Virus record (IMG/VR): IMGVR_UViG_3300036861_000397
Span: 1 to 42,726 of that record
DNA length: 42,726 nucleotides
Origin: a virus
Direction: 5' to 3' (one strand)
Below, in pieces: positions 6,247 to 32,111 of this stretch. The notes under the pieces were generated by a model. It saw nothing but the letters and a program-made list of their open reading frames with translations. It had not been told where the DNA came from and ran no database searches. The translations under genes were made by a program, and so were the position numbers. The stretch's first letter is position 1; every line of letters begins with the position of its first letter.

Positions 6247-6609
6247 TCACTCGGTATTAAATTCGGATTTAATGAAAGCGATCAGCGATGTCAGATCTTC
6301 GCTCTCACTGAACCGCTTGCGCCTCGGCTCCCAGAAATCGTTATGCTTCTGGCGGAAATGGCCGGTGATGGATGTTTTGTGATCGCCAAAGCCGAGTATC
6401 TTTCCGTCGCAGCCGGGAAACGGGCATGGCAGATCGCCGGCGCCGTACTTGTCCCGGTATTCTTCCGGGAAGAATTTCTCCAGTTCTTCTGGCGTCAATT
6501 GCCACTTCTCGATTTTGATTCCATCGCAGTAAAGGATTCCGCCCTCTACCATGAATTTCGGTTCGTGGCCTTGGATATCGGCAATGCTGTATTCGTTGCT
6601 GTTAGACAT
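6247..6609 (-). CDS. Zinc-finger-like protein (C-X4-C-X16-H-X4-H)
   Basis: A protein of 120 residues. Residues near 62-90 read CPFPGC...GHFRQKH, a Cys2His2 arrangement with a loop longer than the classical finger. The N-terminal part contains LTPEELEKFFPEEYRDKY. It overlaps the last eight bases of the glycosyltransferase gene and closes the sugar-modification cassette. It could bind nucleic acid or simply be a zinc-stabilised adaptor. It is the second His/Cys finger candidate in this cassette; the first is at 8298-8432. Confidence 0.7.
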   Translation of the reverse strand: MSNSNEYSIADIQGHEPKFMVEGGILYCDGIKIEKWQLTPEELEKFFPEEYRDKYGAGDLPCPFPGCDGKILGFGDHKTSITGHFRQKHNDFWEPRRKRFSESEDLTSLIAFIKSEFNTE

Positions 6610-7483
6610 GCTTCATCTCCTCGATGATTCTTTCCATTCGGTGAATATAAGTATGATTGGCACGGACACAACGAAGGCCGTTTCTCCCGATTTCCGCCCG
6701 CTCCCCGTTCATGCTCAGGGCTTCCTTGGCGGTATCCACCATCTCAGCTTTGCCCTTGTAGCCAAAATAATGAATGCCTTGCACAAACAAATCACCAATG
6801 CCGTCCACGTCCATATTGGTTAGAAGCGGACAGCCGGTTGACATCACTTCAAAAACGCGCATATTCAGATCACGCTTGATCGAGATATTAAATCCAAGCC
6901 GCGCCTTGATGTAGCGAATCGCCATTTCCTCAAAGAACCTATTTGTTGCAAGGCGCGAATTCGGGAAAGCGGTAAAGAGCGCATCCAGGTAATCAACGCG
7001 GCTGTTGTAGCTTTCCTCATAGCGATCAGCCAGATAGCCCACAAAGGCGATGTCCCACCGCTGTTCCAGCAGTTCGGCTGAAGCCCCGCGCGCCAGAAGC
7101 TCCTCTTTTGATGGATGCGCTTCGGGATGGCAGGCAAGTGGGAGCCACCGGACATTCTCGATGCCGTCCCGCTTGAAATCCGCCACGGCTGGCTTCTGAG
7201 CCACAAAGACGCGGTCAAAATGCCGGGCCTTCCAGAGCCGGTAGCCATAGCCAAGATGGGTATCGATGGCCCAATACGCGCAAGGGTGAGGCGGAAGCCA
7301 CTCCAGTTCATCGCGTCCATCATCGATGTAGATATAGAAATCAAATTCGGGAATCGTGCCGCGCGGCTGGAAGTGCTTAACGCGGCACTTGCCCTGCTCT
7401 TCCAGTTGCTTGAGCGCGCGATGACAGTAGGAAAATGTTCCGTTATTCCTCAGCTCGCAATTGGCTATTACCGCTATGTCCAT
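6602..7483 (-). CDS. Glycosyltransferase, CgeB / family 4-like
   Basis: A protein of 293 residues from the ATG at 7483, preceded by AAAAGGAAGT; the frame is open 36 nt further upstream. The C-terminal half has RWDIAFVGYLADRYE and KRDLNMRVFEVMSTGCPLLTN, the pattern of CgeB-type GT-B enzymes, whose MRxFEVMxxG segment lies in the nucleotide-sugar site. It overlaps the preceding glycosyltransferase by 10 nt. The likely role is transferring a sugar to a virion protein or to host or phage glycan. The acceptor cannot be told from sequence. Confidence 0.8.
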   Translation of the reverse strand: MDIAVIANCELRNNGTFSYCHRALKQLEEQGKCRVKHFQPRGTIPEFDFYIYIDDGRDELEWLPPHPCAYWAIDTHLGYGYRLWKARHFDRVFVAQKPAVADFKRDGIENVRWLPLACHPEAHPSKEELLARGASAELLEQRWDIAFVGYLADRYEESYNSRVDYLDALFTAFPNSRLATNRFFEEMAIRYIKARLGFNISIKRDLNMRVFEVMSTGCPLLTNMDVDGIGDLFVQGIHYFGYKGKAEMVDTAKEALSMNGERAEIGRNGLRCVRANHTYIHRMERIIEEMKHV

Positions 7484-8301
7484 ACTTCCTTTTCCAGAAT
7501 CGTCTTCTCGCTTCCCCACTCATGGCCGACATTGGCCGTTTTGACTTTCTCGTGAATGAACTTCCAGCAGCGATTCAGGTTTGACAGACGGGCTTCGTTA
7601 TCCGCCCATCCGGTTCCAGATCCCCAATGAAACCCATGAATCACGCAGGCCGATGAGTAGAAAACGGTGTCCATTCCGTTGTTAGCAAAGACAGCGCCGA
7701 GAATGTCATCCTCCCATCCGTAGCCTGACATCTGGCTTTCTTCTACCCCGCCAAAATCAACGAACCTGCTTCTAGGGAACACGACTCCGTACCACCAGAA
7801 CCGGTCGACGCCAGCCCTCAAAAATGCCGGTCTTTTGACACCTGCTAGCCGTAAAGCCTGATTTTGGTGCATCTTTCCAATGTCGACGCCTCTGATTGAC
7901 CTTAGAAATTCCCTGTCTGTTTCATAAGCTTCAAAGACCGCCACGGCTTCCGAGCTAAATACCTCGCTCACCTTCTCGATTGTGCCAAGCTGAAAGCACT
8001 CCGGCGACGTCCCGTAAATGGCCTCATGGCTGGCATTCATTACTGCGATATTTGCCAGCAGCGCCCACGGAGAGGCATAAACCGGGATACAGCCAAGGTT
8101 GGCATCCACGGCGATCCACTGCGTTTTAGCAAAGTACCTGTCGGCCCGATCCTTTATCTCCTTGGCCCTTGGCTTCTCCGTTCTCACGTCTTCGACTATG
8201 ACAAGCTCCTGAGTCTCCCTGTCATGGCGGTAAGTAGGGAGCGCCGCCTGCAAGTGTCCGATACGCGATGGTTTCATTGGAACCACTACGGAGATGTTCA
8301 T
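7474..8301 (-). CDS. Glycosyltransferase, GT-A fold (galactosyltransferase-like C-terminal motif)
   Basis: A protein of 275 residues from the ATG at 8301, which overlaps the zinc-finger gene's stop (ATGA). The N-terminus MNISVVVPMKPSR is the nucleotide-binding beta strand of GT-A enzymes. GYGWEDD at about 193-199 matches the acceptor-side motif of Glyco_transf_7C-type galactosyl/GalNAc transferases. A usual DXD is not obvious; VEDVR near 36-40 may serve. It belongs to the cassette of four sugar transferases placed between capsid and tail genes. Confidence 0.75.
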   Translation of the reverse strand: MNISVVVPMKPSRIGHLQAALPTYRHDRETQELVIVEDVRTEKPRAKEIKDRADRYFAKTQWIAVDANLGCIPVYASPWALLANIAVMNASHEAIYGTSPECFQLGTIEKVSEVFSSEAVAVFEAYETDREFLRSIRGVDIGKMHQNQALRLAGVKRPAFLRAGVDRFWWYGVVFPRSRFVDFGGVEESQMSGYGWEDDILGAVFANNGMDTVFYSSACVIHGFHWGSGTGWADNEARLSNLNRCWKFIHEKVKTANVGHEWGSEKTILEKEVWT

Positions 8302-8432
8302 TTTTTCGGACTTACATCTAAGGTTTCGTAACCGTGAATCCGTTCCATGTGTAAATATTTTTCTTCCCGTGTCTTGAACCATTTAAGACAGCAGGGACAG
8401 CAAAACCTCCATGTTCCATAGTCATCGCTCAT
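8298..8432 (-). CDS. C2H2 zinc-finger microprotein
   Basis: A protein of 44 residues, with ATGA overlaps at both ends: the upstream methyltransferase stop at 8429 and the downstream transferase start at 8301. It contains CPCCLKWF...YLHMERIHG, that is C-X2-C-X12-H-X4-H with the conserved aromatic and Leu, very close to the classical TFIIIA-type finger. A lone finger could bind nucleic acid or a protein partner. The frame is open 18 codons further upstream, but ATG 8432 gives the coupled start. Confidence 0.7.
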   Translation of the reverse strand: MSDDYGTWRFCCPCCLKWFKTREEKYLHMERIHGYETLDVSPKK

Positions 8433-9097
8433 CGCCTCACCGCAATAGTCAGTGAAGGCCACGGCTTGCAAACGCTTATGGCCCACGATGGATATTTCTG
8501 TCTGATCTCTTCGATAGCCGGCTGAATCGGCGGGCGGTTAAAGCGCAGCATCCATGATTCCCTGTCGCGTTCAGACGATCCGCCCTCCAGCAGAATCGCC
8601 TTGCTCACATATGGTCCCCACTTCTCAAAGATGGCCCTATATGTATCGCCGTCGTTGGACAGATCAACATGAAGCATGTCGATTGGGCAGTGCTCAAGGT
8701 CCCAAGCATCTATTTTCCCGATCCGCGCATAGCCATCCATCCCAGAGAGCGAAATATTCTCTTTGACCTTGTCGAATGAACAACTTTTATACGGATACAT
8801 TTCAAAAAGATCGTATCCAACAATACTGCCGCCTTCCCGGCTGTCAGCCAGTGCCGCAGCCATAGAAATCAGGCTGAATCCGCCCAGCACCCCGAATTCG
8901 AGAATCGTCTTGGGCTTTGCCAGCAGCGTGAATGCGTACAAAATCCTGTCATAGCCATTGACGGCATAAGAGGACTGAACCGTTCCAAGATGCGCCGGAA
9001 GGCCAGCGCTACAAGAGGGCTGTATCCAGTTGTTGCTCCCGATTGGCAATGCCACTGATGGCGTTGTCATCGGTTCTTTCGTACTCACTGCAAACAT
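8429..9097 (-). CDS. Class I SAM-dependent methyltransferase (Methyltransf_24 type)
   Basis: A protein of 222 residues (or 213 from the ATG at 9070). KTILEFGVLGGFSLISMA at about 63-80 is motif I, with Glu and the GxxGG turn. IVGYDLFEMYPY follows as the motif II strand with Asp, and IDMLHVDLSNDGD is the motif III/IV-like strand typical of small-molecule or sugar O-methyltransferases. It overlaps the end of the GT-methyltransferase fusion gene by 89 nt and is coupled to the zinc-finger microprotein. A role in methylating a transferred sugar is likely by context. Confidence 0.8.
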   Translation of the reverse strand: MFAVSTKEPMTTPSVALPIGSNNWIQPSCSAGLPAHLGTVQSSYAVNGYDRILYAFTLLAKPKTILEFGVLGGFSLISMAAALADSREGGSIVGYDLFEMYPYKSCSFDKVKENISLSGMDGYARIGKIDAWDLEHCPIDMLHVDLSNDGDTYRAIFEKWGPYVSKAILLEGGSSERDRESWMLRFNRPPIQPAIEEIRQKYPSWAISVCKPWPSLTIAVRR

Positions 9098-10355
9098 CCG
9101 GTTTAATTGCCTCCACTATGAAACTCTTAGAGATTTCAAACAGGCCAGTCCGCGTTATGGTAAATCCGAGCATCTCCAGCAGATTTTGAATGCTGGATAC
9201 TGAGTAGCCATGGACGTGGCTCCAATCCATCAGGATAGTCATCGCCGTTTCCTGATTCGGGCACACGATGATCAGCCGCCCGCCTGGACGCAGGACGCGC
9301 AGGAATTCCTTCAGCGATGGGAGCGGGTCAATGATGTGCTCGAGCACATGCCGGCAGATCACGTAATTCTGCGATCCATCCTCAAACGGCATGTTATCGG
9401 CCGGAGCGCATACATCCGCTACGCAGCGGTCAAACTTACGGCCCCCGGCCATTCCGTATTCGCCTTTCGCGGCCCGATCAACTCCCGTACAGCCGGGGAT
9501 TGTTTTGTTGTGCCCCACTCCCACATCAAGGCCGTTTGGATCATCCCCGATCCATTCGCGGATCAGATCGCCCTCCACATCGCTTGTTACTGTGAGCGGC
9601 TCAAATGGCATGATGGCGGCCTGCGTTGTGTCGTACCAAGCTCGTAAGCCATGCTTTCGAATAAGGTGATTGTTGGATTCTTCCTGGTGGTCGAGGCTGT
9701 TCCACCAACCAGCATTGATTCGATCACCTGTCTGGCATCCAATGTGGTGGACGTAACAGGTACGGTCGACGAGCAACTTGTATCCGTGTTTGCGGACCAG
9801 AATGGAAAGGTCAAGATCATCTCCACCAGGCATTCCTTCATCTAATCCCCCAATCTTGGAAAACAAATCAGACCGGATCACCATGCAAAATCCGATCAGA
9901 AGCGTAGTGCAGAAGAGTTTGGGAAGGCCGTGACGCCAGAGGTTCTGAGCACCCGCGACGAAATTACTGCATGGGCCTACCGCACCGATTTCCTCAAAGC
10001 GAAAGTGATTGCAAAGCTGGCGCAAAAAGAGACTTGAGAACGGCAGGAAAACCAGATCGTCGTTGCACATGGCAAACAGACGCGTGTCGCACTCTTCCAG
10101 GAAAGCTTTGTTAATGGCTCCCTGCCAGCCGAGATTCTCGCCTGGGCTGATCACTTTCAGATGCGGATAAACGATGTGATTTCTAAGCGTCTCTTCAAAG
10201 TCCTTGCCGTCCGGGTCCACGGCATCTCCGTTGTTGATCACAACTATTTTGAATGGATATTCGTTGTAGAAAGTCAGCGTGTAGAGGCAATCCACCAGTT
10301 GCTTGAAATTGTTGTGCGTCGGGATTGCGATTGTCAGATCCATTGTAGCGTTCAT
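9009..10355 (-). CDS. Bifunctional glycosyltransferase (GT2) - SAM methyltransferase fusion
   Basis: A protein of 448 residues. Residues 5-250 are a GT2 domain: LTIAIPTHNN, VVINNGD, ENLGWQGAINKAF, the metal-binding CNDD at 97-100, and GGDDLDLS near 177-184. Residues about 275-410 are a methyltransferase 11-like domain: LDVGVGHNKTIPGCTGVD, then ADNMPFEDGSQNYVICRHVLEH and LRVLRPGGRLIIV. Such two-domain enzymes add and methylate, or cap, a glycan. The start overlaps the preceding stop (TAATG); a second ATG lies four codons in. The C-terminal 40 residues are linker-like. Confidence 0.8.
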   Translation of the reverse strand: MNATMDLTIAIPTHNNFKQLVDCLYTLTFYNEYPFKIVVINNGDAVDPDGKDFEETLRNHIVYPHLKVISPGENLGWQGAINKAFLEECDTRLFAMCNDDLVFLPFSSLFLRQLCNHFRFEEIGAVGPCSNFVAGAQNLWRHGLPKLFCTTLLIGFCMVIRSDLFSKIGGLDEGMPGGDDLDLSILVRKHGYKLLVDRTCYVHHIGCQTGDRINAGWWNSLDHQEESNNHLIRKHGLRAWYDTTQAAIMPFEPLTVTSDVEGDLIREWIGDDPNGLDVGVGHNKTIPGCTGVDRAAKGEYGMAGGRKFDRCVADVCAPADNMPFEDGSQNYVICRHVLEHIIDPLPSLKEFLRVLRPGGRLIIVCPNQETAMTILMDWSHVHGYSVSSIQNLLEMLGFTITRTGLFEISKSFIVEAIKPDVCSEYERTDDNAISGIANREQQLDTALL

Positions 10356-10540
10356 TAGGCAGACTTCTTTACATGCGGTAAATATAGATATCTGGCCCTG
10401 AACCGTCTGGCGTATTTATCACCATCTCGAAGTAACAAGGAAGCTTGCCTTCTTAGCCACTGCGCGATGTCGTTCTTTCCCTTTTTTGTCATTATATCCG
10501 CGTCAAAAATAGTGAGAACGGCTGCAGATTTCTCTGTCAT
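10355..10540 (-). CDS. Small basic protein in the glycan cassette
   Basis: A protein of 61 residues from the ATG at 10540, preceded by GAAGGAGATTAT, a strong Shine-Dalgarno. The longer open frame up to 10729 lies inside the upstream glycosyltransferase and has no such signal. The protein has a short N-terminal strand (AAVLTIFDADIMTKKG) and a basic helical C-terminus (WLRRQASLLLRDGDKYARRFRARYLY). No family is recognised. Confidence 0.65.
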   Translation of the reverse strand: MTEKSAAVLTIFDADIMTKKGKNDIAQWLRRQASLLLRDGDKYARRFRARYLYLPHVKKSA

Positions 10541-10556
10541 ATAATCTCCTTCGTGC

Positions 10557-11330
10557 TCATTGTGGACGCGCCGAATGCGGGCCTTGCAGGTAGCTTTCCT
10601 CGTTGTGCCACACTGACGGCCCATTGGGTTTATGTGAGGTTTTAACCGCTGTGTCACAGAAGATCGGAATCCCGGCAAGGCCCGCCTGCCAGCAGAAATG
10701 AAAATCTTCCCCGGCTCCCACGGCCCCATAGAACCAAGGCTTTTTGATCCGCTTGAAAACTGACATTTCGATCAGGACAACACCAGTGCCGATGCAATCC
10801 ACCTGCACTAGCTGATCGCGCGGATAATCGAAAAGAACTTGCGAGTCGATATCTTCGCACTGCTTTTCAAAGTTCCACTTGCGCTTGAATTTCCAGAGCA
10901 CCGGGGCGATAGGCAATCGCGCGGTGAATGCCAGCGCCCCGATGATTGGCTTCTGATGCCGCCACAGGCGCAGAAAGGTGTCTTTTGCAAAAACCATGTC
11001 ATCGTCAAAAAAGAGGATGTAATCGGAACCGTAGGCCAGCGCGACTTCAACAACGGCATCCCTGGCCTGCCCGATCAGCGAGTTTCCCTTCTGCGTGGCG
11101 GTGTTGAATTCAAAGATCGGATCTCCAGGAATAAACTCAGCTCCATTTCCTCCGTGATTTCTGTCCAGAGATGGGAATTCCTTATACTTTTCCCCACCAT
11201 ATTCAAAGTGCCAGTATGATCTTTCCTGCAACCGCCCAAGGTAATGAAAGAATTCCTCATGGGTGTCAAAGCAATGGAGATCCGGCCCCTTGTAAGAACA
11301 CTGAGCCAAAGTTGTGGTTACCTTTTCCAT
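10557..11330 (-). CDS. Glycosyltransferase, GT2-like (DDD motif)
   Basis: A protein of 257 residues from the ATG at 11330, which lies within the last codons of the upstream small gene. SDYILFFDDDM, with D109-D111, is the metal and nucleotide-sugar binding motif of GT-A enzymes. LIGQARDAVVEVAL precedes it as in phage 'conserved glycosyltransferase' proteins, and GAGEDFHFCWQAG near 220 is the catalytic-base region. It is the first transferase of the cassette after the capsid genes. Confidence 0.75.
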   Translation of the reverse strand: MEKVTTTLAQCSYKGPDLHCFDTHEEFFHYLGRLQERSYWHFEYGGEKYKEFPSLDRNHGGNGAEFIPGDPIFEFNTATQKGNSLIGQARDAVVEVALAYGSDYILFFDDDMVFAKDTFLRLWRHQKPIIGALAFTARLPIAPVLWKFKRKWNFEKQCEDIDSQVLFDYPRDQLVQVDCIGTGVVLIEMSVFKRIKKPWFYGAVGAGEDFHFCWQAGLAGIPIFCDTAVKTSHKPNGPSVWHNEESYLQGPHSARPQ

Positions 11331-11527
11331 TTGTCCTTCAGCCAATCCAGGAGCAATTCCGGCTGATACAGGCAATGCCAGAAAGGCTCATTACCGGCAT
11401 TGCGAAACTTGCCTGCAGTTGGATACGGGCAGGTTTGATGCTTCCGTATCTGCTCGGAGCAATTCTTCAGTATCCGCCTGCACGACATGCAAAACAGCCA
11501 CTTGCAAGCCAGCGGTTTTCCATCCAT
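11318..11527 (-). CDS. Small Cys-rich protein
   Basis: A protein of 69 residues, ATG at 11527. CMSCRRILKNC and a later CPYP suggest a possible metal site. The C-terminus (LYQPELLLDWLKDKWKR) is amphipathic. It overlaps the start of the next glycosyltransferase by 13 nt. There is no clear Shine-Dalgarno, and the region just upstream is a hairpin, so expression is less certain than for its neighbours. Confidence 0.45.
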   Translation of the reverse strand: MDGKPLACKWLFCMSCRRILKNCSEQIRKHQTCPYPTAGKFRNAGNEPFWHCLYQPELLLDWLKDKWKR

Positions 11528-12365: not shown

Positions 12366-13124
12366 TTAGCTTGCGTCAATGCCGTGCAGCAAACCGAGCT
12401 TGCGGCGGTTGTTGGTTGTCAGGTTAAGCATCGCCAGGACCTTTGCCACATAGGCGGTCTGGTTGTCAGGCTCGATGAAATCGGTAGTGATGAAATCCGA
12501 TTCCTTATCAATGACAAGCCGAATTGCCCCTGAATTCAACAGCACAATGGACTCGCCGGTTACCGGAACATTTGAAGCCATCCCGGCATCCCAGAACATG
12601 TCAGCGCCCTTGTACTTGAGAACCGTAAAGCCGAGATCCAGGGATTTCTGCTCGTCGATGAACCGCTTGCCAGAAACTCCCAGTGACTCGTAGTACTCAA
12701 AGGCAGTCTGTGAGCACATGATGCCATCCGGGAAATCCGCGCCGCCGGCCGATACGGTATTAAAGCCGGTCCTGAGCTTATCTTCCAGGTTGCTGACATA
12801 CGCGCCAACATCGGCCTGGTGGTTTCTCCACCACGTAAAAGTGGACCCGGAAACGGAACCGAGCGTGGTTGTCGACGGGCTATTTGACGCATGCAGGAAA
12901 ATGCCGTCGATCTTCTTTGCCGGGGTAGCCGAAATATTGGCAAACAGATCAGTGGTGAGCGTGTCCTTGATGGACATTTCAGCCTGATTTGTTTTGGCTT
13001 CCAGCAAGTTCAACAGCCGGTGCTTTCCTGAGTTCTTGCGCTTCTCTGCGCGGGAGATGGCGATTGTACCCCCATACTCGCGCCAGGAATAAAGCGCGAT
13101 GCTGATTCCTTCCTGTGGCGTTGT
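12366..13124 (-). CDS. Major capsid protein, exon 2 (residues 77-328)
   Basis: The coding part downstream of the intron starts at ACA (13124) and gives TTPQEGIS..., the continuation expected after LD in this phage capsid family, where YxxLDTTPQEGI is a conserved run. Further family features are SIxISRAEKRKNSG, a WWRNHQADV segment and a C-terminal LTTNNRRKLGLLHGI. A TTG at 13127 allows the fragment to look like a free-standing 253-residue gene, but there is no Shine-Dalgarno and the TTG falls at the intron's last bases. Joined with exon 1 the protein is 328 residues, a normal length for an HK97-fold capsid of this group. Confidence 0.85.
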   Translation of the reverse strand, partial: TTPQEGISIALYSWREYGGTIAISRAEKRKNSGKHRLLNLLEAKTNQAEMSIKDTLTTDLFANISATPAKKIDGIFLHASNSPSTTTLGSVSGSTFTWWRNHQADVGAYVSNLEDKLRTGFNTVSAGGADFPDGIMCSQTAFEYYESLGVSGKRFIDEQKSLDLGFTVLKYKGADMFWDAGMASNVPVTGESIVLLNSGAIRLVIDKESDFITTDFIEPDNQTAYVAKVLAMLNLTTNNRRKLGLLHGIDAS

Positions 13125-13385
13125 CAATTTGTGTTATCTGGCAACAGTTTACGTTGCCATTCTGCATATCGCTATGCAGTTCGGACTATCTCATCCCTTT
13201 CGGGCAGGGCGCTCGTGGGAGAATTACTGGCTCTGTGAGCCTCGTCTCCTAGTCTCTGCACCTTCAGGCCCGTCGCCGGACCAGCTTGGCTCATGGTTGA
13301 CTCTAAGAGTTTTTCCATGAATTCACCCTGTTTACATTGACGCCATGCGTTCATTCGTTTAGGCAGCCAACGGGACTAACGCTAA
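13125..13385 (-). ncRNA. Group I self-splicing intron in the major capsid gene
   Basis: A 261-nt insert between codons 76 and 77. Core elements: R GGTGCAGAGACTAGG (13262-13248) and S GAGATAGTCC; P7 forms between GACTA (13254-13250) and TAGTC (13188-13184). P5 is GGTCC/GGGCC (13282-13278 with 13271-13267). GAGCCAAGCT lies just 5' of P5 and GAAGGTGCAG just 3', as in the Azoarcus and cyanobacterial tRNA introns, so subgroup IC3 is likely. P9 hairpins are CTGCAT/ATGCAG (13179-13162) and TGGCAAC/GTTGCCA (13159-13139). There is also a GAAA tetraloop hairpin (13204-13195). P1 pairs exon GGAT (13389-13386) with GTCC (13376-13373), placing a U-G wobble at the splice site. The last base is G and there is no ORF of size. 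Excision restores the frame. Confidence 0.88.
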
Positions 13386-13613
13386 ATCCAACTGTTCGTA
13401 ATCGGCATAAGCCTTAATCGTCGAGTTCTTCCCATAGAGCAAATGTTCAACGATATGGGTTCCGCCATCTTCGTACTTGACCCGATCCTTGGAAGTGAGC
13501 CACTTCAGGAACGGGAATTTGTTGAAAATGTTGTCTCGCAGTTGCCGCGAGTAATTCTTCAGCGTAGTAGACAGCAGGCTGTCGTATACGTCTGTGACCG
13601 AGATGCCAGCCAT
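13386..13613 (-). CDS. Major capsid protein, exon 1 (residues 1-76)
   Basis: An ATG at 13613 follows CAGGAGGGCCATATAA, a good Shine-Dalgarno. The fragment reads MAGISVTDVYDSLLSTTL... FPFLKWL... LLYGKNSTIKAYADYEQLD, the conserved N-terminus of a common phage capsid family. Unspliced, the frame runs 8 more codons into the intron and stops at TAA (13359-13361), giving an 84-residue truncated product. The splice site falls after GAT (Asp76), exactly between codons. The capsid gene lies after scaffold and before the two small beta-rich proteins. Confidence 0.85.
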
Positions 13614-13631: not shown

Positions 13632-14594
13632 TTATTGTTTGCTGGCTAGCTCTTCCTCAGCGGCGGCGGCGGCTTCGGCGAAACTGGTGATCTTCTTTGC
13701 TCCAGAACGGACCTGCGGCGAGCTTGATTTGCCCGTCAAGGCAGTGCGTTTTTGCTTTTCGAGGCTGGTTTGTGTTGCAGTGGTCTGGGCCTGCGCGGTT
13801 TTTTGCTGCAGAGATGGGAACAACACCGCCTTGGCGGCATTGGAGAATTTTGGATAGAGGAGATTGTTCTGGATCAGATAGGAGATATAGGCAGGAACGG
13901 TAGCGCCCACGCTGGCGGCTTCAGCAAGAATCTGCTGATCAACCTGCGGGGCGATTGTGTCGTAAACGGCTATGTCCTTGCCATCCATTTTCGTTGTGCC
14001 GAATTCGTTTCTTAGCTGCTGATAGGCAAGAGCCACCTGCGAGGCTTCAAAGTTGCGGTAGGCGATAGAGGCCTGTTGCTGGACCGGGGCCAAAACGGCA
14101 TTGATCTCGCTTCGAACAAATTCAGCGAGAATTTCCTGCTCGCTTTTTTCCGACGGCTCAGTTTCAGCCTGCGCGCCTGCCTGCGGTTGCTGCTGCATTC
14201 CGCCTGTTACTTCGGCAAATGCGGCCGCTATCTTTGGGTGTCTCAGCAGAGTGCCAAGTTGGTTTATATTTTGGGCCTGAGTCTGGTAGGCGCGGTTAAG
14301 CTCGAAGGCTTGCTTTGCCACGGCGTCAAGGTTGACTTGCCCGGTTGCGGGGTCAACAAAACCGCTTTGAGACTTTACCCACTTTAAATGGTCCGGCTCT
14401 TCGGCTGCTTTCCCTTGGCCAGGGGCGGCTTGTTCCGGTGGTTCTGTTTGTGGTGCTTTTGGTGCTGATCCCTCTTCTGGGATCGGGAACTCTACCAGCG
14501 CTTTGTCAAGTGACTGCGCCAGGGTGTTGGTTTCCGGGACCGCGCTTTCCGTTTGTACGGGCGACGGCGACGGTGTTGATTCTGGTTGGTCCAT
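13632..14594 (-). CDS. Capsid scaffolding-type protein
   Basis: A protein of 320 residues. Residues 1-75 are Pro/Ser/Glu-rich and disordered (STPSPSPVQTES..., EEGSAPKAPQTEPPEQAAPG). From about 85 on it is helical and Gln/Ala-rich with charged repeats, and it ends in a Lys/Glu/Ala-rich helix (FAEAAAAAEEELASKQ). Composition, length and position directly upstream of the capsid gene are those of phage scaffolds. The C-terminal basic helix is where scaffolds usually bind the capsid protein. A palindromic element lies 29-64 bases upstream of its start. Confidence 0.75.
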   Translation of the reverse strand: MDQPESTPSPSPVQTESAVPETNTLAQSLDKALVEFPIPEEGSAPKAPQTEPPEQAAPGQGKAAEEPDHLKWVKSQSGFVDPATGQVNLDAVAKQAFELNRAYQTQAQNINQLGTLLRHPKIAAAFAEVTGGMQQQPQAGAQAETEPSEKSEQEILAEFVRSEINAVLAPVQQQASIAYRNFEASQVALAYQQLRNEFGTTKMDGKDIAVYDTIAPQVDQQILAEAASVGATVPAYISYLIQNNLLYPKFSNAAKAVLFPSLQQKTAQAQTTATQTSLEKQKRTALTGKSSSPQVRSGAKKITSFAEAAAAAEEELASKQ

Positions 14595-14667: not shown

Positions 14668-14826
14668 TCAGGGCTTCTTGGAGAGCATGGAAGCGGCTTT
14701 CTTCAGGACGGATTTGCGCTTGTTTTCGGTAGCATAGAAGACACGCTTCCAGTCTTCACCGTATTTGGCTTTCATGGCGCGGGCCACTTTTTCGCCGTGG
14801 CCGCCGTAGTACTTACTTATTGGCAT
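14668..14826 (-). CDS. Small basic protein (52 residues)
   Basis: The ATG at 14826 overlaps the methyltransferase stop (TAATG). The sequence begins MPISKYYGGHGEKVARAMKA and continues KYGEDWKRVFYATENKRK, ending in a Lys-rich tail. This pattern (a small protein with GGHGxKVxxxMKxxYG) recurs near phage portal/capsid genes as a conserved hypothetical. It is short, basic and probably helical. Its function is unknown; head assembly or DNA binding are possible from context. Confidence 0.65.
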   Translation of the reverse strand: MPISKYYGGHGEKVARAMKAKYGEDWKRVFYATENKRKSVLKKAASMLSKKP

Positions 14827-15383
14827 TAGATTTTCTCGAGCGCAACAGCACCGTGACTCTCTTCCGAGTAAGCCAGCACACGGAAGCCGTTCTCCAGGGA
14901 TTCTGCTATGGCATCTTCCATGCCAAGGCCATCGGCATCTGCCGCTTCAATGGCACTGTGAGGATAGGGCACCTTGCAGGCCTGGTAGGCGGCCTGACGG
15001 CCATTGTTCTTGGCGTAGGTCACCGTATCGTGGATGCAGACAATGCCGCCCTCCGGCATCACTTTATCCAGTGCTTCCAGTTCCCATTTCAGCGTCGGGT
15101 AATTGTGGTCCGTGTCGATCAGGCAAAAATCAATCCGTGGAATCTTTGGAATTTCCAGGTAGGAGATACCGACGATCCATTCGTTACCGAGATTTTCAAA
15201 ATCATTGCGCCAATTTATGTCGCCGTCATTGATCACGATCAGCTTGAACGGAACTTCCTTTTGCAGCGTCATCAACTGTGTGGTGTTCTCACCGGTCCCG
15301 GCTCCACACTCGACAACGATTCCGGGCTTGCGGCCCAGAATCAGTTGGCGGATGTTCAGGTTTTTATCGAAGTGCTGTTGCAT
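14826..15383 (-). CDS. Class I SAM-dependent methyltransferase
   Basis: A protein of 185 residues from the ATG at 15383; the longer frame to 15446 overlaps the upstream gene. GIVVECGAGTGENTTQL is motif I (E/DxGxGxG). FKLIVINDGD gives the acidic end of strand 2, RIDFCLIDTDHNYPTLKWELE the strand-4 region with Asp-His, and GGIVCIHDT the strand-5 motif. This is the Methyltransf_24-like type, as for the enzyme at 8429-9097. It lies between portal and scaffold, separate from the sugar cassette, so its target could be a virion protein or a small molecule. Confidence 0.75.
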   Translation of the reverse strand: MQQHFDKNLNIRQLILGRKPGIVVECGAGTGENTTQLMTLQKEVPFKLIVINDGDINWRNDFENLGNEWIVGISYLEIPKIPRIDFCLIDTDHNYPTLKWELEALDKVMPEGGIVCIHDTVTYAKNNGRQAAYQACKVPYPHSAIEAADADGLGMEDAIAESLENGFRVLAYSEESHGAVALEKI

Positions 15384-15663
15384 TGTCGGGGATATCAGCG
15401 CATTCTGGATAGTACAGTCTACGGAAAACAAGATAACTGCAATCATCGCAGATTTCGGGATGCTTCCTGAATCCAGCCATCACCTTAAAGGCTTCCCATG
15501 CGCTCTCCACAGGCTTATCCGCTTCAATCGGGACAGGATCTCCGGGATGACGCTCGCACAAATACCAATCCGTGAACATGTGACAGAGGGTAGTGCGTTT
15601 CATGACCATTTTCCGGCACATGGAACACGGTTTCGGTTCTTTCTGTTTTCTCTTAATCCACAT
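15364..15663 (-). CDS. Cys-rich probable zinc-binding protein
   Basis: A protein of 99 residues. CSMCRKMVM..., LCHMF, LCERH and CDDCSYLVF give two CxxC pairs plus further Cys/His residues, consistent with one or two zinc sites. The N-terminus is very basic (MWIKRKQKEPKP). It overlaps its upstream neighbour by 11 nt and the methyltransferase by 20 nt. No exact family is recognised. Together with 15653-15928 it makes a zinc-ribbon pair downstream of the portal. Confidence 0.65.
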   Translation of the reverse strand: MWIKRKQKEPKPCSMCRKMVMKRTTLCHMFTDWYLCERHPGDPVPIEADKPVESAWEAFKVMAGFRKHPEICDDCSYLVFRRLYYPECADIPDNATALR

Positions 15664-15928
15664 AAGAATTCTTCTCCCGTAATCCGTGCAACCTTAGATA
15701 CTGCTTAAAAGCCCGGCGCGAATAAAAGGTTTCGCCGCGCGCAGACAGGTGCTCGAAGAACTTTCCATTCCCCCAATCATCCACGTTGTGACGTCCGAAG
15801 ACCTGCGAGAAATTCTGATGGCCGTGGCGCGGGCACCAGTCCAATATTGAAGGCTTATGGTCTTTCAGCCTGAAAAAAACATCGTAAGCCTGGTCGCATT
15901 TGGGGCACTGGAAAGTATAGGCTGGCAT
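15653..15928 (-). CDS. FmdB-type zinc-ribbon protein
   Basis: A protein of 91 residues. MPAYTFQCPKCDQAYDVFFRL is the N-terminal zinc ribbon of the FmdB family (M-P-x-Y-x-F-x-C-x-x-C), with the second ligand region at WCPRHGH. The C-terminus is basic and aromatic (FYSRRAFKQYLRLHGLREK). Zinc ribbons of this kind often follow portal genes in podovirus-like genomes. It shares its start with the portal stop. Confidence 0.7.
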   Translation of the reverse strand: MPAYTFQCPKCDQAYDVFFRLKDHKPSILDWCPRHGHQNFSQVFGRHNVDDWGNGKFFEHLSARGETFYSRRAFKQYLRLHGLREKNSYVD

Positions 15929-17916
15929 CAGCGCGCGTTCCTTGCAGGGCCGATGATCCCGGCCCGCATGTCAGGACGACGCTTGATATCGCCTTCCGAT
16001 GGCCTGAAGTCTTTGGACTGTTTCTGGCGGTTGACTTCCTGTTGCTGCTGCATGGAGGCCTGCTGCATCTGGGCCTGTTGGGCAGCGGCCTGTTCTTGGG
16101 CGATCTGGCCTGCGGTTTTCAGTAGCTCCTGATCCCAATCCATCATCCGCACTAACTTCTGGCGCACTTTCATGGCGTCAAAGTAGGGGTCCTGCTGGAT
16201 CAGGCTGAACATCTCCATGGCCTGCTTGCGCTCCTCCAGCTGGCTGTAAGGCAGAGAGGAATAGATATCCACATCCACTGAAAAAGCGCCTTGGATATCG
16301 GCATTGGACCACTTGAGCCACTGATTACCCTGTAGGCCTACCAGTTGTGTCACTGTGGGAATATCGGCGTATTCCTGAAGGATGATGTTTAGTTTTCTGA
16401 CCAGCTTTTTGACGAATTCCCGGACGATATCGCGCTTTTCCTGTATTTTGATGTCCCCGCCGCCCTGGATCAGGCTGGCCTCATAGGCTGTGTCCACGCC
16501 AGGCTCTCTGGTGCCACGCGAAAAGGCAGATACGCCCACGTCTTCTGTGATTTCACGCTTGATGATGTCGGCCACGTTGTAAATGTCAGCCGCAATGTTG
16601 GCATCTGAAATAGGCTCAGGCCCCATGTTCATTGCCTTCATCTCGACGGTTGTCATGTCGGCGCCCTGTTCCCACTTTTCGCGCTCTCCGTCGTCCTTGA
16701 AAGCGCCTTCCATCACTTTGTAGCGGCGGTGGGCGCGGGCGGCATGGTTTACGGCATAGGAACGCAGATAGTTGTAGGCTTCCTGCTTGCTCTTGACCTG
16801 TTTTGTCAGCGCGATCGGAAAACTGTCGTTGATGGTTTCGTCAAATCCCAGCAGCGTGTAGGTTGAGCCTTCCGGGTCCAGCAGTTTGTAGGGATTCTCT
16901 TCGTTGCGGTTGAGCTTTTCGGACCCTTCGATCCAGACCATCAGGCGCGAATTCTTCAGATCATGGATCTCGTAGACTTTGTACCGCTTGTCGTCGTCAT
17001 CCTGAAAATCCTTGCCGCCTCCAAAATTGTAATCGTAATAGATGTTTGAGTTTTCAATGGAGGCAAGATCCACATTTTCAAGATAGAGGTCGTTTTCCAG
17101 GTCTTCGGCGCACATATACTTTACTTCCGCGCACCAGCGGGCTTCTTTCAGATCGAATTCAGCCAGGTCGGTGTCCCACAGAAAACACCACGGCTTGATT
17201 CTGGAAAATCGCAGGTATTGGCGGGCTACCTGTTCAGTGGCCTTAAGTTCAGTCGCCCCTTCCGGCTGGTTTTCCGAAGGCAGTAACTCAGTCTCTATCA
17301 CCCATTCCAGTTTTCCCACAGCGTAAGGCAGCACAAGGGCATCGTTAATGAGCCTGCGCGCTTTCGGTTTAAGTTCGATCTTTTCCAGTTCGGCGTTGTC
17401 GATGGCTTCAAAAAGATCCACCTGCTTTTGCGCGTCTACAATTCGCCCTCCGATCTGGGCGATTGGAGTTCCACGTGGAATATCAACGACAGGCACGGGC
17501 TGCGGCTGGCCGGTGGTCATATCAACGGGCCCCGGCTGCATCACCGGCTGGCCGGTCATTGGGTCCATCTGCGGAATATCTGTTTCTGAAAGCGTGGGAT
17601 TTTCAAGCTGCAGGCGGACGCGCGGATTCTGGAAATAAAGCTGCGGCCGGATTGCGTCGATATTGGCCTTGATCAGATTGGCGGTGACGCGGTGGAAAGT
17701 TCCCTTGGTGCCCCCCATGCCGGGAGTCCACTGCTCGCCCTCAAAAAACGCAATCAGCTTTTTCCACTCCCCGCCGTCCTTGGGAGCGCCGCCCTTCTCC
17801 TTGAGCTTCTTTTCCGCCTTTTCGAGCCGACGCCGCCACAGAGAAACGTCCGGGTCTTCATCGGCTTTTACGCGCTTGCGCTTTGGTTCCGGTCCTTTGC
17901 GCTCAAGAGTTGGCAT
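15928..17916 (-). CDS. Portal protein
   Basis: A protein of 662 residues. A basic N-terminus is followed by WKKLIAFFEGEQWTPG... FHRVTANLIKANIDAIRPQLYFQNPRV, the wing/clip start typical of large podovirus portals that hold the DNA-channel ring. The middle has DLAEFDLKEARWCAEV and GFDETINDSFPIAL; GVSAFSRGTREPGVDTAYEASLIQGGGDIKIQEKRD is the conserved stem region with helix. The C-terminus is a Gln-rich coil (QEQAAAQQAQMQQASMQQQQ). It is the first gene of the leftward virion operon, 29 bases beyond the shared palindromic element. Confidence 0.85.
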   Translation of the reverse strand: MPTLERKGPEPKRKRVKADEDPDVSLWRRRLEKAEKKLKEKGGAPKDGGEWKKLIAFFEGEQWTPGMGGTKGTFHRVTANLIKANIDAIRPQLYFQNPRVRLQLENPTLSETDIPQMDPMTGQPVMQPGPVDMTTGQPQPVPVVDIPRGTPIAQIGGRIVDAQKQVDLFEAIDNAELEKIELKPKARRLINDALVLPYAVGKLEWVIETELLPSENQPEGATELKATEQVARQYLRFSRIKPWCFLWDTDLAEFDLKEARWCAEVKYMCAEDLENDLYLENVDLASIENSNIYYDYNFGGGKDFQDDDDKRYKVYEIHDLKNSRLMVWIEGSEKLNRNEENPYKLLDPEGSTYTLLGFDETINDSFPIALTKQVKSKQEAYNYLRSYAVNHAARAHRRYKVMEGAFKDDGEREKWEQGADMTTVEMKAMNMGPEPISDANIAADIYNVADIIKREITEDVGVSAFSRGTREPGVDTAYEASLIQGGGDIKIQEKRDIVREFVKKLVRKLNIILQEYADIPTVTQLVGLQGNQWLKWSNADIQGAFSVDVDIYSSLPYSQLEERKQAMEMFSLIQQDPYFDAMKVRQKLVRMMDWDQELLKTAGQIAQEQAAAQQAQMQQASMQQQQEVNRQKQSKDFRPSEGDIKRRPDMRAGIIGPARNAR

Positions 17917-18360: not shown

Positions 18361-18715
18361 ATCTGAATTTGAGAACCTCCTGGATGCAGTTGAAAACAAG
18401 ACATGGAGAGAGAAATACCCAAACCTCACGGGCTACGAATTAGCCAAGTTAATGGATTCTCATTTCAGCCGTTGGGAGTGGGTTGGAGATGATAGCCCTG
18501 GTGTCCAGAAGTGGTTAGACAAAAATGGAGGATCTGAAATGGAATGGATTGCACAGACAAGACAGCTACTTCTCTCTCTAACTGAGGTTCTCGACAAGAT
18601 GAAAGATCGGGAACGGAAGCGCGCGGGCGAATTAATGGAATTTGAATCCATTAGGACAGATCTGGAGAAAATTCAAAAGGAATTGGCTGAACTGAAAGCG
18701 GATGAAACTCCGTAA
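18329..18715 (+). CDS. Helical protein upstream of TerL, candidate terminase small subunit or accessory
   Basis: A protein of 128 residues with GAGGAGAAATC before ATG 18329. The N-terminal half is globular and acidic (LLDESEFENLLDAVENKTWREKYPNLTGYELAKLM). Residues about 70-125 are a coiled coil (LLLSLTEVLDKMKDRERKRAGELMEFESIRTDLEKIQKELAELK). It overlaps the TerL start by 14 nt. A small terminase is expected here and such proteins contain a DNA-binding head plus an oligomerising coil, but no helix-turn-helix is convincing, so this is inferred from position only. Confidence 0.6.
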   Translation: MELTPLNLLDESEFENLLDAVENKTWREKYPNLTGYELAKLMDSHFSRWEWVGDDSPGVQKWLDKNGGSEMEWIAQTRQLLLSLTEVLDKMKDRERKRAGELMEFESIRTDLEKIQKELAELKADETP

Positions 18716-20102
18716 TTTCCAGTCATCGCGCAACCGCTACTACAAGGCCCCGGCTGAGGTCAATTGGGACTACTCGCCCACCGCTCGCCAGCGCGAATTT
18801 CATACAAATTCCTCCCGCTACAAGGCCTACGGCGGGGCAATGGGGGGCGGAAAATCATGGGCGCTGGCAGCCGAAGCCATCAAACTATCGCTCAAATTTC
18901 CCGGAAACCGCGGCTATATGTGCCGGCACACCCTGCAGGACTTCAGGCGCTCCACTCTTGTCACATTTGAGATCCTATGCCCCCGTGAGTTCATCAAAAA
19001 TCACTACCGGGACGACCGGCTGCTGGAATTCCACAACGGCAGCCAGATCCATTACGGGGGCCTTGGTGGGCAGGAAGACCTCGAGAAAATCAAATCCACC
19101 GAATTTGGCTGGTTTGCCATCGACGAGGCTTCGGAAACCTTCGAGGAGATGTTTTTGCTGCTCTGTTCGCGCCTGCGCTGGAAGTTGCGCGACGGAAAGA
19201 CTCCAAAATACAGGGGCCTTATCGCTTCCAACCCGGAGCCGGGTTGGGTCAAGGACCGGTTTGTCGATCAGCAACTACCCGATCACGTCTTTATCCCGGC
19301 CCTGCCCCGCGACAACCCACATCTGCCAAATGACTACGACGCCAAGCTGCGCCAGATGTACCCGGATGAATGGGTCCGCCGGTATCTTGACGGCTCATGG
19401 GATGTGTTCGAGGGGCAGATCTACAAGGAATTCGACCGGAAAACGCACGTCTACAGTAATCAGGAAATCAGTCCTTTTTGGGAGAAATTCCGCGTCATTG
19501 ATCATGGTTATGTCAACCCAACGTGCTGCATTTGGGCTGCTATCGATTATGACGGTAGGATCTGGATTTACCGGGAACATTACGAGCGCCAGCTGACGGT
19601 GCGAGAAAACGCCGAGATCATCATCGCCCAGGAACCCAAATTCCAAGGATTGACGCTGTGCGATCCTTCAATGTTCTCAAACACGCAGCAGAAAAACGGG
19701 AAAGCCTGCTCATTTGCAGATGATTACCGGGAAGCAGGGATCGTCTGTATCTCGCCGTATTCAGATAAAAACTGGGCCTCTGAAGGGGTTGGGATTAACC
19801 TGGTAAAACAACGGTTCAAGGACAATTCGCTGCTAATTCACGAATCCTGCAAAAATGGAATCTCGGAAATCCTGAAGTACCGCTGGCGGGATCTGCGGGT
19901 CACCGACCGGGCGCGCAAATCAGCCCCGGAAGTTCCTGTAGACAAGGACAATCATTTTTGCGACGATTTACGCTATCTATGTGTCTGGAAGCCTTCAGGA
20001 TCTTCCGCCCCCAAAAAGCCTGAAGCCAAAAACACCCTCCATTTTGCCATCATGCAGCACAAAAAGCGCATCCATCAGCCGCGTTTTGCAGGCTGGGATT
20101 AG
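18702..20102 (+). CDS. terL: Terminase large subunit
   Basis: A protein of 466 residues, the packaging motor. The ATPase domain has a Walker A at 44-52 (GGAMGGGKS), a Walker B at 137-142 (WFAIDE) and a motif III-like ASNPEP at 175-180. The nuclease domain has its acidic residues at D267 (FRVIDHGY), D321 (LTLCDPS) and D421/D422 (HFCDDLRY), as in the RNase H-like fold. Length fits the Terminase_6 type. It is transcribed away from the portal, which is on the opposite strand. It ends 12 bases before the convergent 90-residue gene. Confidence 0.9.
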   Translation: MKLRNFQSSRNRYYKAPAEVNWDYSPTARQREFHTNSSRYKAYGGAMGGGKSWALAAEAIKLSLKFPGNRGYMCRHTLQDFRRSTLVTFEILCPREFIKNHYRDDRLLEFHNGSQIHYGGLGGQEDLEKIKSTEFGWFAIDEASETFEEMFLLLCSRLRWKLRDGKTPKYRGLIASNPEPGWVKDRFVDQQLPDHVFIPALPRDNPHLPNDYDAKLRQMYPDEWVRRYLDGSWDVFEGQIYKEFDRKTHVYSNQEISPFWEKFRVIDHGYVNPTCCIWAAIDYDGRIWIYREHYERQLTVRENAEIIIAQEPKFQGLTLCDPSMFSNTQQKNGKACSFADDYREAGIVCISPYSDKNWASEGVGINLVKQRFKDNSLLIHESCKNGISEILKYRWRDLRVTDRARKSAPEVPVDKDNHFCDDLRYLCVWKPSGSSAPKKPEAKNTLHFAIMQHKKRIHQPRFAGWD

Positions 20103-25547: not shown

Positions 25548-26294
25548 TCAGTGAGCACATACCGAGCACATTAGTTTACGGTCCTCCATAGTCTTACGCT
25601 GGCGGGGCAATCGCCCTGACTCGAATTCCTTTTTCAAGTCTTTCAGTGCAGCAGGCCATGTGTCACGCTGATCGGAGCGTAGTGTGTGCCCGGTTAGCTC
25701 CTCAAACGCTATAGCCCGGTCGAATTCTCCGGGATGTTGTTGCCACAACTTCCACCATTCATAAATGGTCTGAAAAAAGCATATCGCACAATCCGTGCGC
25801 TCGGGAATAGATACCCCACGATCAGCCAAAAACTTCTTAACATCTCCCAATCCCCAACCCCATTCTACGAGTGGGAATGTTCGCTGTATTAGCGCATCTC
25901 CATAATCAACACCTTCCCTGTCGGCTTCGTCCGCTCTGATTCCCACATAAACCACGCATGGCGTATGCTGGGCTATGTACTCCTGAAACGGCTCTATCTT
26001 TAACACCCGCGTACACCAACGCATTCGCCAATTAGGAAGTGCTCTCCACTGAACGATCAGCCCACTTAGCGTTCGACCATTAGTGATGCACTTCACTGGC
26101 TTTCCAAGCAACGTGCCAAGACGGTCCCAATGCAGAGCCATTTCCGGCAATTCATTTCCTGTCGGCGTACAAATAAAGTCGTAATCGACCTCTGTATTCA
26201 TTTCGCGCAGCCTCAGCGCCATCGCAGTTGAATCTTTTCCGCCGCTCAGTGCAACGATATGTTTCACATGCCGCAAATCCACAACGTAATTCAT
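25548..26294 (-). CDS. PAPS reductase / adenylyl-dependent sulfotransfer-like protein
   Basis: A protein of 248 residues. HIVALSGGKDSTAMALRL gives the PP-loop SGGKDS at 17-22, which binds the adenylate. Later TPTGNELPEM, CTRVLKIEPF and a Cys-rich middle (DCAICFF) with a C-terminal MCSVCAH pair suggest an iron-sulfur or zinc site. Phage PAPS-reductase family proteins are common and their role is uncertain; host sulfur metabolism or DNA or tRNA sulfur modification are possible. It lies in the early operon, ending 23 bases before the leader peptide. Confidence 0.8.
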   Translation of the reverse strand: MNYVVDLRHVKHIVALSGGKDSTAMALRLREMNTEVDYDFICTPTGNELPEMALHWDRLGTLLGKPVKCITNGRTLSGLIVQWRALPNWRMRWCTRVLKIEPFQEYIAQHTPCVVYVGIRADEADREGVDYGDALIQRTFPLVEWGWGLGDVKKFLADRGVSIPERTDCAICFFQTIYEWWKLWQQHPGEFDRAIAFEELTGHTLRSDQRDTWPAALKDLKKEFESGRLPRQRKTMEDRKLMCSVCAH

Positions 26295-30492: not shown

Positions 30493-31444
30493 TGATTTTC
30501 TTTTCTGCGTTCTGGATCAGCACGTTCAAATCGTTCGGGCCGCATTTCTCGGCAAGGTCAAAAGTTTTCTTGCGCTGTTCGTCGGTAAAGACGGAATGAT
30601 TCATCATCTCCACCAAAAGCAAGCGCTTAGACTGAATGGCTTTGTCTATAGTGGCGGTAGGCTCCGGTGCCGCCTTGCTTCTGGAAAGTTTCTCGCAAAT
30701 CTCGTCGTACCTTGAAGCAAGCACTTCTTTGGCGCTCTCAAAGCCGAATGTCTTCAACACGGCGTGGATATCGTCATTGTCGTGGCCAGCCTCTCCACCA
30801 ATGGCGAACATGCGCTTGCGCTGGCCTTCCTTGATCTTCTTTCCCTTGGCGGGGGGCGGAATGTTGTCGCTCTCGATGGGCCGATTCTTTTTGTAATCCG
30901 CTATGCCGTCCATTTCCTCTGCCGGAGTAGGAGCGAATCCTGCCAGCACCACAACCCAAGAGAAGACGTTACGGAGTGCCTTGGCACACGCCCTGGTCTG
31001 GGCCATTGAGCGGAGTTGGAACAGTGGCTTGTTGGACCAGTTCTTCTCATCTGAAAGACACATCGCTTCACCGGATGAAATCACTTGCCCGGTGCTCACC
31101 AGGATCACATCCGCCATTGCCTCGAAGCCTTTGACTTCCCCGAATTCAACGAATCTGGTTTCCCGCACCTTGGAAGTGGCCCCGTAGAATCTGGCGATCA
31201 AGGCCCAATCGTCGCTCTCGACGTATTGCTTGCCGCCAAACATGACTTTGCGTGGCTTGGAGGAAATCACCTGCTGCAAGGCTTGGGCGGCGCGTTTGGC
31301 TTCCTGCAGAATCACGTCTGGAGGCCGTGAAACGGAGAGCAGTTGTTGCTCCGGCTGTGCGACAACCAGTGCCAATTCTTCGCTTTCAGTTAATGCTTCC
31401 TGGTTATTCACAATAGTCCTTCGATTTCCCATCGCTTTATCCAT
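30449..31444 (-). CDS. Single-strand annealing / recombination-type protein with SSB-like C-terminus
   Basis: A protein of 331 residues (or 327 from the ATG at 31432). VMFGGKQYVESDDWALIARFYG... and FQLRSMAQTRACAKALRNVFSWVVVLAGFAPTPAEEMDG are motifs of a conserved phage protein commonly encoded beside Gp157, probably with an Erf/Rad52-like annealing role. Residues about 205-300 are helical. The last residues, ELDAENIPF, resemble the acidic IPF tip of SSB proteins that recruits repair factors. The assignment to recombination is from motif resemblance and gene neighbours. Confidence 0.6.
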   Translation of the reverse strand: MDKAMGNRRTIVNNQEALTESEELALVVAQPEQQLLSVSRPPDVILQEAKRAAQALQQVISSKPRKVMFGGKQYVESDDWALIARFYGATSKVRETRFVEFGEVKGFEAMADVILVSTGQVISSGEAMCLSDEKNWSNKPLFQLRSMAQTRACAKALRNVFSWVVVLAGFAPTPAEEMDGIADYKKNRPIESDNIPPPAKGKKIKEGQRKRMFAIGGEAGHDNDDIHAVLKTFGFESAKEVLASRYDEICEKLSRSKAAPEPTATIDKAIQSKRLLLVEMMNHSVFTDEQRKKTFDLAEKCGPNDLNVLIQNAEKKINEHNKELDAENIPF

Positions 31445-31842
31445 CTGTGGATAATCGCAATAGAGAATCCAAAATGATCGGCGATATTTTGGTATGTACC
31501 ACCAGACCGCCTGAGATTGATTATCTGATTCTTAAAGACTGGAACTCTTTGGACGCGAAGTTTTGGAAGAATATCTTTGCGACCATGGCAAGAAAGGCAA
31601 AGAGTCTGGAGATTTTCGAGCGTGTTATTTTTTCTGTCTCGGTCTTTGTGATCTACGGTTATTGGTCTGCCCCATTTCTTCCTGTGTTCGGAGTCGGACA
31701 TACCACACTCGATACACTGGAATCTATCACGCTGCAAAACCTCTTGGCGTAATCCACCGGTTCCATAATGAGACTTTGTTGAGTAGCCATTTTTATTTTT
31801 GAATTCCAGCCTATCAATTCGTTGCCACTCAGCCTTAGTCAT
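31408..31842 (-). CDS. HNH endonuclease (free-standing)
   Basis: A protein of 144 residues from the ATG at 31842, which overlaps the previous stop (ATGA) with GGAG upstream. The HNH fold is clear: CIEC at 43-46, ITVDHKDRDRKNN (H65), then LQTLCLSCHGRKD with H86. A C-terminal helix-turn-helix-like region (GGTYQNIADHFGFSIAIIHRWIKRW) probably contacts DNA, as in homing endonucleases. Its last 37 bases overlap the start of the annealing-type gene, a common insertion pattern. It could be the trans-acting partner of the capsid intron, but there is no direct evidence. Confidence 0.8.
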   Translation of the reverse strand: MTKAEWQRIDRLEFKNKNGYSTKSHYGTGGLRQEVLQRDRFQCIECGMSDSEHRKKWGRPITVDHKDRDRKNNTLENLQTLCLSCHGRKDILPKLRVQRVPVFKNQIINLRRSGGTYQNIADHFGFSIAIIHRWIKRWEIEGLL

Positions 31843-32111
31843 CGTCTCTCCATCCACTGGTTTATGTTGTTCTCTGGATCTTCCGCCTTCACTCCCGGCT
31901 CCAGATTCAGCAAATCGGCAATCCTTTTAACCATCGGATCGGTTCTGACGCTGAGCGCCAGAGCCTCATCATCGCCGGTGATTAGCATGACGCGGTTCAA
32001 TTCTTCCTGTAGGGCTTTGCGTTCTTCGGTTGTCATAGGCTTTGCATCACGAAAACATTCCCTGGCGGCTGATTTTTCGACCCTTAAAAACCTGCGCGTA
32101 TCCATCCGCAT
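31839..32111 (-). CDS. Hypothetical helical protein
   Basis: A protein of 90 residues from the ATG at 32111; a shorter 65-residue form begins at the ATG of MTTEERKALQEELNRV (32036). The helical part (DDEALALSVRTDPMVKRIADLLNLEPG) is consistent. Its start is uncertain because another frame (32047-32205) overlaps the N-terminal third. It leads into the HNH gene by ATGA. Confidence 0.5.
   Translation of the reverse strand: MRMDTRRFLRVEKSAARECFRDAKPMTTEERKALQEELNRVMLITGDDEALALSVRTDPMVKRIADLLNLEPGVKAEDPENNINQWMERR

Follow-up and report, generated by a model that had tools for sequence, protein, structure and literature searches.

Group I introns in the capsid genes of phages are already on record. 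In LittleE, a mycobacteriophage of Cluster J, a probable group I intron splits the major capsid gene; a U precedes its 5' site and a G ends it, and Pope et al. 2013 (PMC3706429) demonstrated, with RT-PCR and N-terminal sequencing, the splicing that restores the full-length frame. The same paper describes a related intron of 265 bp in a tail gene of phage BAKA, which is free of an endonuclease like the intron considered here, and cites a capsid-gene group I intron in the lactococcal phage Tuc2009 (PMC3706429). The Jug phages are reported to have about 18 group I introns per genome, with splicing seen in metatranscriptomes (PMC12363816). The locus described below shares with LittleE the split major capsid gene, the nucleotides at the two splice sites and the full-length frame restored upon removal, while LittleE differs in belonging to another phage group, in the size of its intron (819 bp, with a homing endonuclease frame) and in that its splicing is proved (PMC3706429). 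With the Jug phages it shares the presence of a short group I intron in an essential phage gene; those are huge gut phages, however, and the examples named include terL, nrdD and DNA polymerase (PMC12363816). The intron described here is therefore a further example of a known phenomenon and not new in kind, and the rarity that a sequence-only reading of this DNA had attached to it was overstated, given these published cases and the repeated occurrence of similar introns among the sampled environmental viral contigs described below. An earlier report of an intron in this particular capsid family, phrog_9953, was not found in a literature lying largely outside subscription journals.

The DNA is IMG/VR record IMGVR_UViG_3300036861_000397, an uncultivated bacterial virus represented by a single metagenomic contig of 42,726 nt, the whole of which is referred to as the window. 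With a probability of about 0.94, judged from sequence, a compact, ORF-less, self-splicing intron of group IA interrupts the major capsid gene of this tailed phage at the boundary between codons 76 and 77. The gene is laid out as follows:

13386-13613, minus strand: 5' exon of the major capsid gene (residues 1-76, ending ...YEQLD), an ORF with an ATG start whose joined product matches phrog_9953
13125-13385, minus strand: predicted group I intron of 261 nt without a homing-endonuclease ORF, supported by an RF00028 score of 57.1 bits and by a boundary pair unique within 12 nt
12366-13124, minus strand: 3' exon of the same gene (residues 77-328 and stop), an ORF that continues the 5' exon without a break in every one of 86 homologues

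The protein begins MAGISVTDV at an ATG at 13613, which is preceded by caggagg. Read without splicing, the 5' frame enters the insert for eight codons and then meets a stop, so that only 84 residues would be made (13359-13613), as the sequence-only reading had stated, while the 3' frame opens with TTPQEGIS... at 13124 and is closed by a stop at 12366. The insert, 13385-13125, preserves phase 0 with its length of 87 codons and contains in-frame stops, and the predicted excision of its 261 nt, which was checked on the frames, fuses the two parts in phase 0 into a protein of 328 residues, the spliced sequence at the junction reading ...CAGTTGGAT followed directly by ACAACGCCA.... That this is a phage major capsid protein had been proposed together with an alignment to capsid families as a means of checking it, and a profile search of the joined protein against phrog_9953 (major head protein) gave a match with E 6e-47 over residues 7-321 of 328.

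Homologues of the joined protein are uninterrupted in seven phage records at 23-30% identity, including the Myxococcus phages Mx8 and Mx9 and the Bradyrhizobium phage ppBjS10J-1. The junction was compared across 86 loci, consisting of six distinct phage records and the best 80 of more than 500 IMG/VR homologues; this set tests the junction and not the frequency of introns, and it favours uninterrupted copies because the 80 IMG/VR loci are the best-scoring ones. Residues 67-88 align without gaps, none of the 86 shows a break at the junction, and stops, present in three of the 86 alignments, lie beyond the natural C-termini. The insertion site falls within a conserved stretch, Y-S-G-Y-[DE]-x-L-[ND], and the homologue consensus at the junction is approximately Y-[SG]-[GE]-[YWF]-[DE]-x-[LIV]-[ND]-[IVT]-[SAG]-[PAT]-S-[DN]-V. 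The earlier statement that the interruption sits in a conserved run is thus correct as to a gap-free conserved stretch at the junction, but the homologues do not literally read YxxLDTTPQEGI.

Searching viral and bacterial genome contigs with the sequence of the joined capsid protein revealed no close relatives of this phage, nor did a portal search, near-identical records possibly having been left out. A terminase search yielded 48 distant relatives with identities up to 39%, and in the 21 of their loci with a capsid match the match was always one long, unbroken stretch that gave no hint of an intron. As this phage is represented by one metagenomic record that has no close relatives, no near-identical intronless allele of the capsid gene was seen in the searches of viral and bacterial genome contigs. 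A related phage carrying the insert with a continuous frame through it would have spoken against an intron; none was found, nor was any relative carrying the insert at all.

Within 12 nt on either side of the proposed sites there is only one in-frame boundary pair with U before the 5' site and G at the 3' end, namely 13386/13385 and 13125/13124, which singles out exactly the splice sites proposed from sequence. The U, the pairing of GGAT with the guide GTCC and the terminal G had likewise been anticipated, and all of them are present:

13373-13389, minus strand: P1, 5'-exon GGAU (13389-13386) with guide GUCC (13376-13373) and a U.G pair at the splice site; short, with 4-5 bp; seen in the pair check and the unconstrained fold
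13125-13125, minus strand: terminal G of the intron (omega G), from the boundary test
13119-13122, minus strand: possible P10, 3'-exon AACG with intron CGUU (13381-13378); weak, an equally good match being expected by chance in about 6% of cases, so that it adds little

A scan with the Rfam group I intron model, the check that had been suggested and whose failure would have weighed against an intron, returned a match at 13162-13419 on the minus strand, with 57.1 bits and E 4.8e-12 for the whole window (E 9.1e-14 in a local search). This score is only modestly higher than the gathering score of RF00028, which is 50 bits; no other Rfam family, however, exceeds its gathering score anywhere in the window, and the 42.7-kb record contains no second group I match. 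The unconstrained minimum-energy fold yields P1, P2, P3, P4, P5, P6a, the P7.1 pair, P8, P9 and P9.1, with a z score of -3.27 against shuffles, one of 200 of which folded equally well. P7, being a pseudoknot, cannot appear in a nested fold. The R strand (GTGCAGAGACTAGG) and the S strand (GAGATAGTCC) from which it is built are both present in the insert, and the helices, all of whose pairs were verified letter by letter, are placed as follows:

13336-13371, minus strand: P2, GUUGGC-u-GCC with GGCGUCAAU; unconstrained fold and pair check
13205-13330, minus strand: P3, CAGGGUG (13330-13324) with CGCCCUG (13211-13205); 100% of cells paired, two-sided changes in 5 of 7 pairs
13291-13320, minus strand: P4 (13320-13315 with 13296-13291) enclosing P5 (13310-13306 with 13304-13300); pair check and covariation
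13261-13289, minus strand: P6 (13289-13288 with 13262-13261) and P6a (13282-13277 with 13272-13267, GCGA loop); pair check and covariation
13184-13254, minus strand: P7, the guanosine-binding helix, R GACUA (13254-13250) with S UAGUC (13188-13184); invariant in 13 of 13 related introns
13218-13249, minus strand: P7.1 (13249-13245 with 13222-13218) and inner P7.1a (13241-13237 with 13233-13229); an insertion relative to RF00028, at a place occupied in T4 td
13195-13204, minus strand: P8, CCC GAAA GGG; pair check and covariation
13162-13179, minus strand: P9 hairpin, GCGA loop; RF00028 match, unconstrained fold and pair check
13140-13158, minus strand: P9.1 hairpin, GGCAAC with GUUGCC; unconstrained fold and pair check

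The pairing of R and S into P7 (GACTA with TAGTC in the DNA) agrees with what had been read from the letters, as do the P5 stem, the two P9 hairpins (P9 and P9.1) and the GNRA hairpin, such loops being found three times, as GCGA in P6a and P9 and as GAAA in P8.

Covariation was measured on an alignment of 13 related introns, with shuffles and a sliding of the pairing partners as controls. The covariation score was 0.456, while shuffles gave 0.150 and slid partners no more than 0.134; 82.4% of the cells were paired, against 63.1% in shuffles and at most 42% with slid partners, and two-sided changes occurred in 131 cells, against 50.6 in shuffles. The shuffle control is uncorrected for the relatedness of the introns, and the slide control, which corrects for it, agrees. 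By helix, the paired fraction was 100% in P3, 95% in P4, 91% in P6a and 92% in P8, P7 being invariant, and covariation was present in P3, P4, P5, P6a and P8. The marks of sequence and structure by which a group I intron is recognised are found together in this insert: a conserved P3-P8 core with P7 built from R and S, a covariance-model score above the curated threshold, a U ending the 5' exon as U.G in P1 with a G ending the intron, and a continuous gene after removal.

The same observations bear on two other explanations of the split frame. One holds that the intron is degenerate and no longer splices, the capsid gene being dead or its product made in two pieces, the second from a TTG at 13127. 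The Rfam score is moderate and the 3' frame does have that TTG at its very start, but no ribosome-binding site is visible upstream of it (CAGATAACACAAA), all core helices are intact with a P7 identical to the consensus of the 13 introns, the boundaries comply with the U and G rule as well as with the reading frame, and neither exon is shortened, which makes degeneration very improbable. The other dispenses with RNA splicing, either because the ribosome bypasses the insert or because the split is an assembly error. It draws on the fact that there is one assembled record only; neither process, however, would supply a full group I structure with covarying helices, and both were rejected on that ground as scarcely credible.

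The assignment of the intron to a subgroup turns on the region between P7 and P3. P7.1/P7.2 elements mark group IA. To our knowledge, IC3 introns, such as the tRNA introns of Azoarcus and Anabaena, have no inserted helix at this place. In the capsid intron about 36 nt are inserted between the R strand of P7 and the 3' strand of P3 and fold into two stacked helices (13249-13218), an insertion relative to the Rfam consensus; Pseudomonas phage PaZq-1 also has an insertion relative to that consensus, and in T4 td helices occupy the equivalent place between P7 and P3. As regards a choice among IA1, IA2 and IA3, the insertion is one composite hairpin and seems closer to the P7.1/P7.1a form. The P7.1/P7.2 elements are counted among the subgroup-defining features (PMC3984707). 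The extra helices typical of IA are thus found here, and the uninterrupted P7-P3 passage of IC3, a subgroup set apart in this analysis by general description, is not.

The nearest DNA matches of the intron are phage introns, namely those of the crAss-like phages cr50_1 and cr1_1, beside an HNH gene, and that of PaZq-1; a match in plasmids was not found. The cr50_1 intron (73.5%) adjoins the HNH gene and lies between two dut fragments, and the PaZq-1 intron lies between two DNA polymerase fragments. Like the capsid intron, the introns of T4 td, PaZq-1 DNA polymerase and cr50_1 dut combine the P3-P9 core with helices inserted between P7 and P3, and an AUAGUC strand is common to all four; those of PaZq-1 and cr50_1 also have the strand AGCCAAGC...AAGGU.CA..GACUA. 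In contrast to the capsid intron, all three reside in genes of DNA or nucleotide metabolism, and those of T4 td and cr50_1 have an endonuclease gene inside or beside them. Because T4 td and PaZq-1 likewise have helices inserted in the P7-P3 region, and because the nearest DNA matches are phage introns, the capsid intron is filed, on sequence features, as group IA of the phage type and not as IC3. The sequence-only reading had likened its core to the IC3 introns of bacterial tRNA genes, and an intron of that kind moved into the capsid gene would be compatible, as far as general knowledge goes, with the compact size and the GNRA loops; the additional two-part hairpin at 13249-13218, the equivalent place filled in T4 td and the phage DNA polymerase introns, and the phage-intron neighbours contradict this likeness, and IC3 was rejected as highly unlikely.

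For a group IA intron at this site, the following course of splicing is proposed, and the sequence elements for each of its steps are present. In the late transcript, GGAU at the end of the 5' exon would pair with the guide GUCC to form P1 and present the 5' site, a guanosine bound in P7 would attack after U13386, the freed 5' exon would attack after the terminal G13125, and the exons would be joined in frame with release of the 261-nt RNA. We infer that splicing occurs and that the phage needs it for its capsid protein; this protein is required in hundreds of copies, which would call for efficient splicing in the late phase of infection. The gene is to be read as encoding one capsid protein of 328 residues, since annotation without splicing leaves a fragment of 84 residues and a second frame lacking a proper start.

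The 261-nt intron is too short to hold a homing endonuclease gene, and no such ORF is found inside it; its ORFs reach at most about 60-70 aa and overlie the core. Because the intron carries no such gene, it was probably acquired by homologous exchange or by means of an endonuclease encoded elsewhere, or else it has lost an endonuclease of its own. Stand-alone endonucleases that serve ORF-less introns are known and described as collaborative homing (PMC3984707). A stand-alone HNH endonuclease gene lies at 31408-31857 on the minus strand (phrog_8446, 1.8e-15), about 18 kb from the capsid intron; it is the only endonuclease match among the window frames scanned, and nothing links it to the intron.

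A core pattern derived from the capsid intron and its relatives matched 15 IMG/VR contigs, on which the intron flanks match the major head proteins phrog_1328 (loci L090, L091/L097 and L094), phrog_1005 (L099) and phrog_14242 (L103), as well as terminase and tail sheath. The introns of these head protein loci have the same core and are flanked, as here, by pieces of major head protein genes, so that at least three further capsid families are interrupted; they differ in the capsid families and sites concerned, and several have a nearby endonuclease or multiple introns. In L091, L097 and L099, two or three introns are found close together. A second core pattern brought 80 further IMG/VR loci (L156-L235), with 72 frames downstream of the introns, each being the longest open frame nearby, taken mechanically and without one-by-one verification as an exon; seven of them match one capsid PHROG family, and the matches to six capsid Pfam families sum to 19, with overlaps possible. 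Among the 72, the named class encountered most often, next to endonucleases, is that of the major head protein families. Upstream of the second-pattern introns, psbA (photosystem II D1) is frequent (7 of 70).

Judged from these predicted introns, group I introns clearly recur in capsid genes of uncultivated phages, and their presence in unrelated capsid families of environmental contigs affects both gene calling and capsid-based marker-gene surveys. That group IA introns of uncultivated phages might even reside preferentially in capsid genes, against the published emphasis on DNA-metabolism genes, is a tentative and rather doubtful suggestion, the core patterns being a biased sample in which some contigs are possibly close relatives. 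If it were true, the intron in phrog_9953 would be one case of a general pattern tying virion production to RNA splicing.

Around the capsid gene, the order from portal through intervening genes to capsid resembles that of the relatives:

15928-17916, minus strand: portal protein gene (phrog_156, 3.5e-20; P22_portal match)
13632-14594, minus strand: gene between portal and capsid, probably the scaffold by its position, with a gene of similar length at the same place in Mx8, Mx9 and ppBjS10J-1; a search for a PHROG match found none

Most genes, those of portal and capsid among them, are encoded on the minus strand, whereas the gene of the large terminase subunit (18702-20102) is found on the plus strand. 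The capsid gene is followed downstream, at 6602-11375 on the minus strand, by a cluster of glycosyltransferases and methyltransferases (PF13524; PF00535 fused to a methyltransferase; PF13578), which possibly modifies glycans of the virion or the host, and a further PF13578 methyltransferase is found at 14826-15446. A PAPS reductase-like gene (25548-26294, minus strand; PF01507/phrog_424) represents a common auxiliary phage gene. Finally, a CheY-like response regulator receiver domain (PF00072, 1.9e-23) is encoded at 36126-36527 on the minus strand, adjoining the phage lysozyme gene at 35699-36139.
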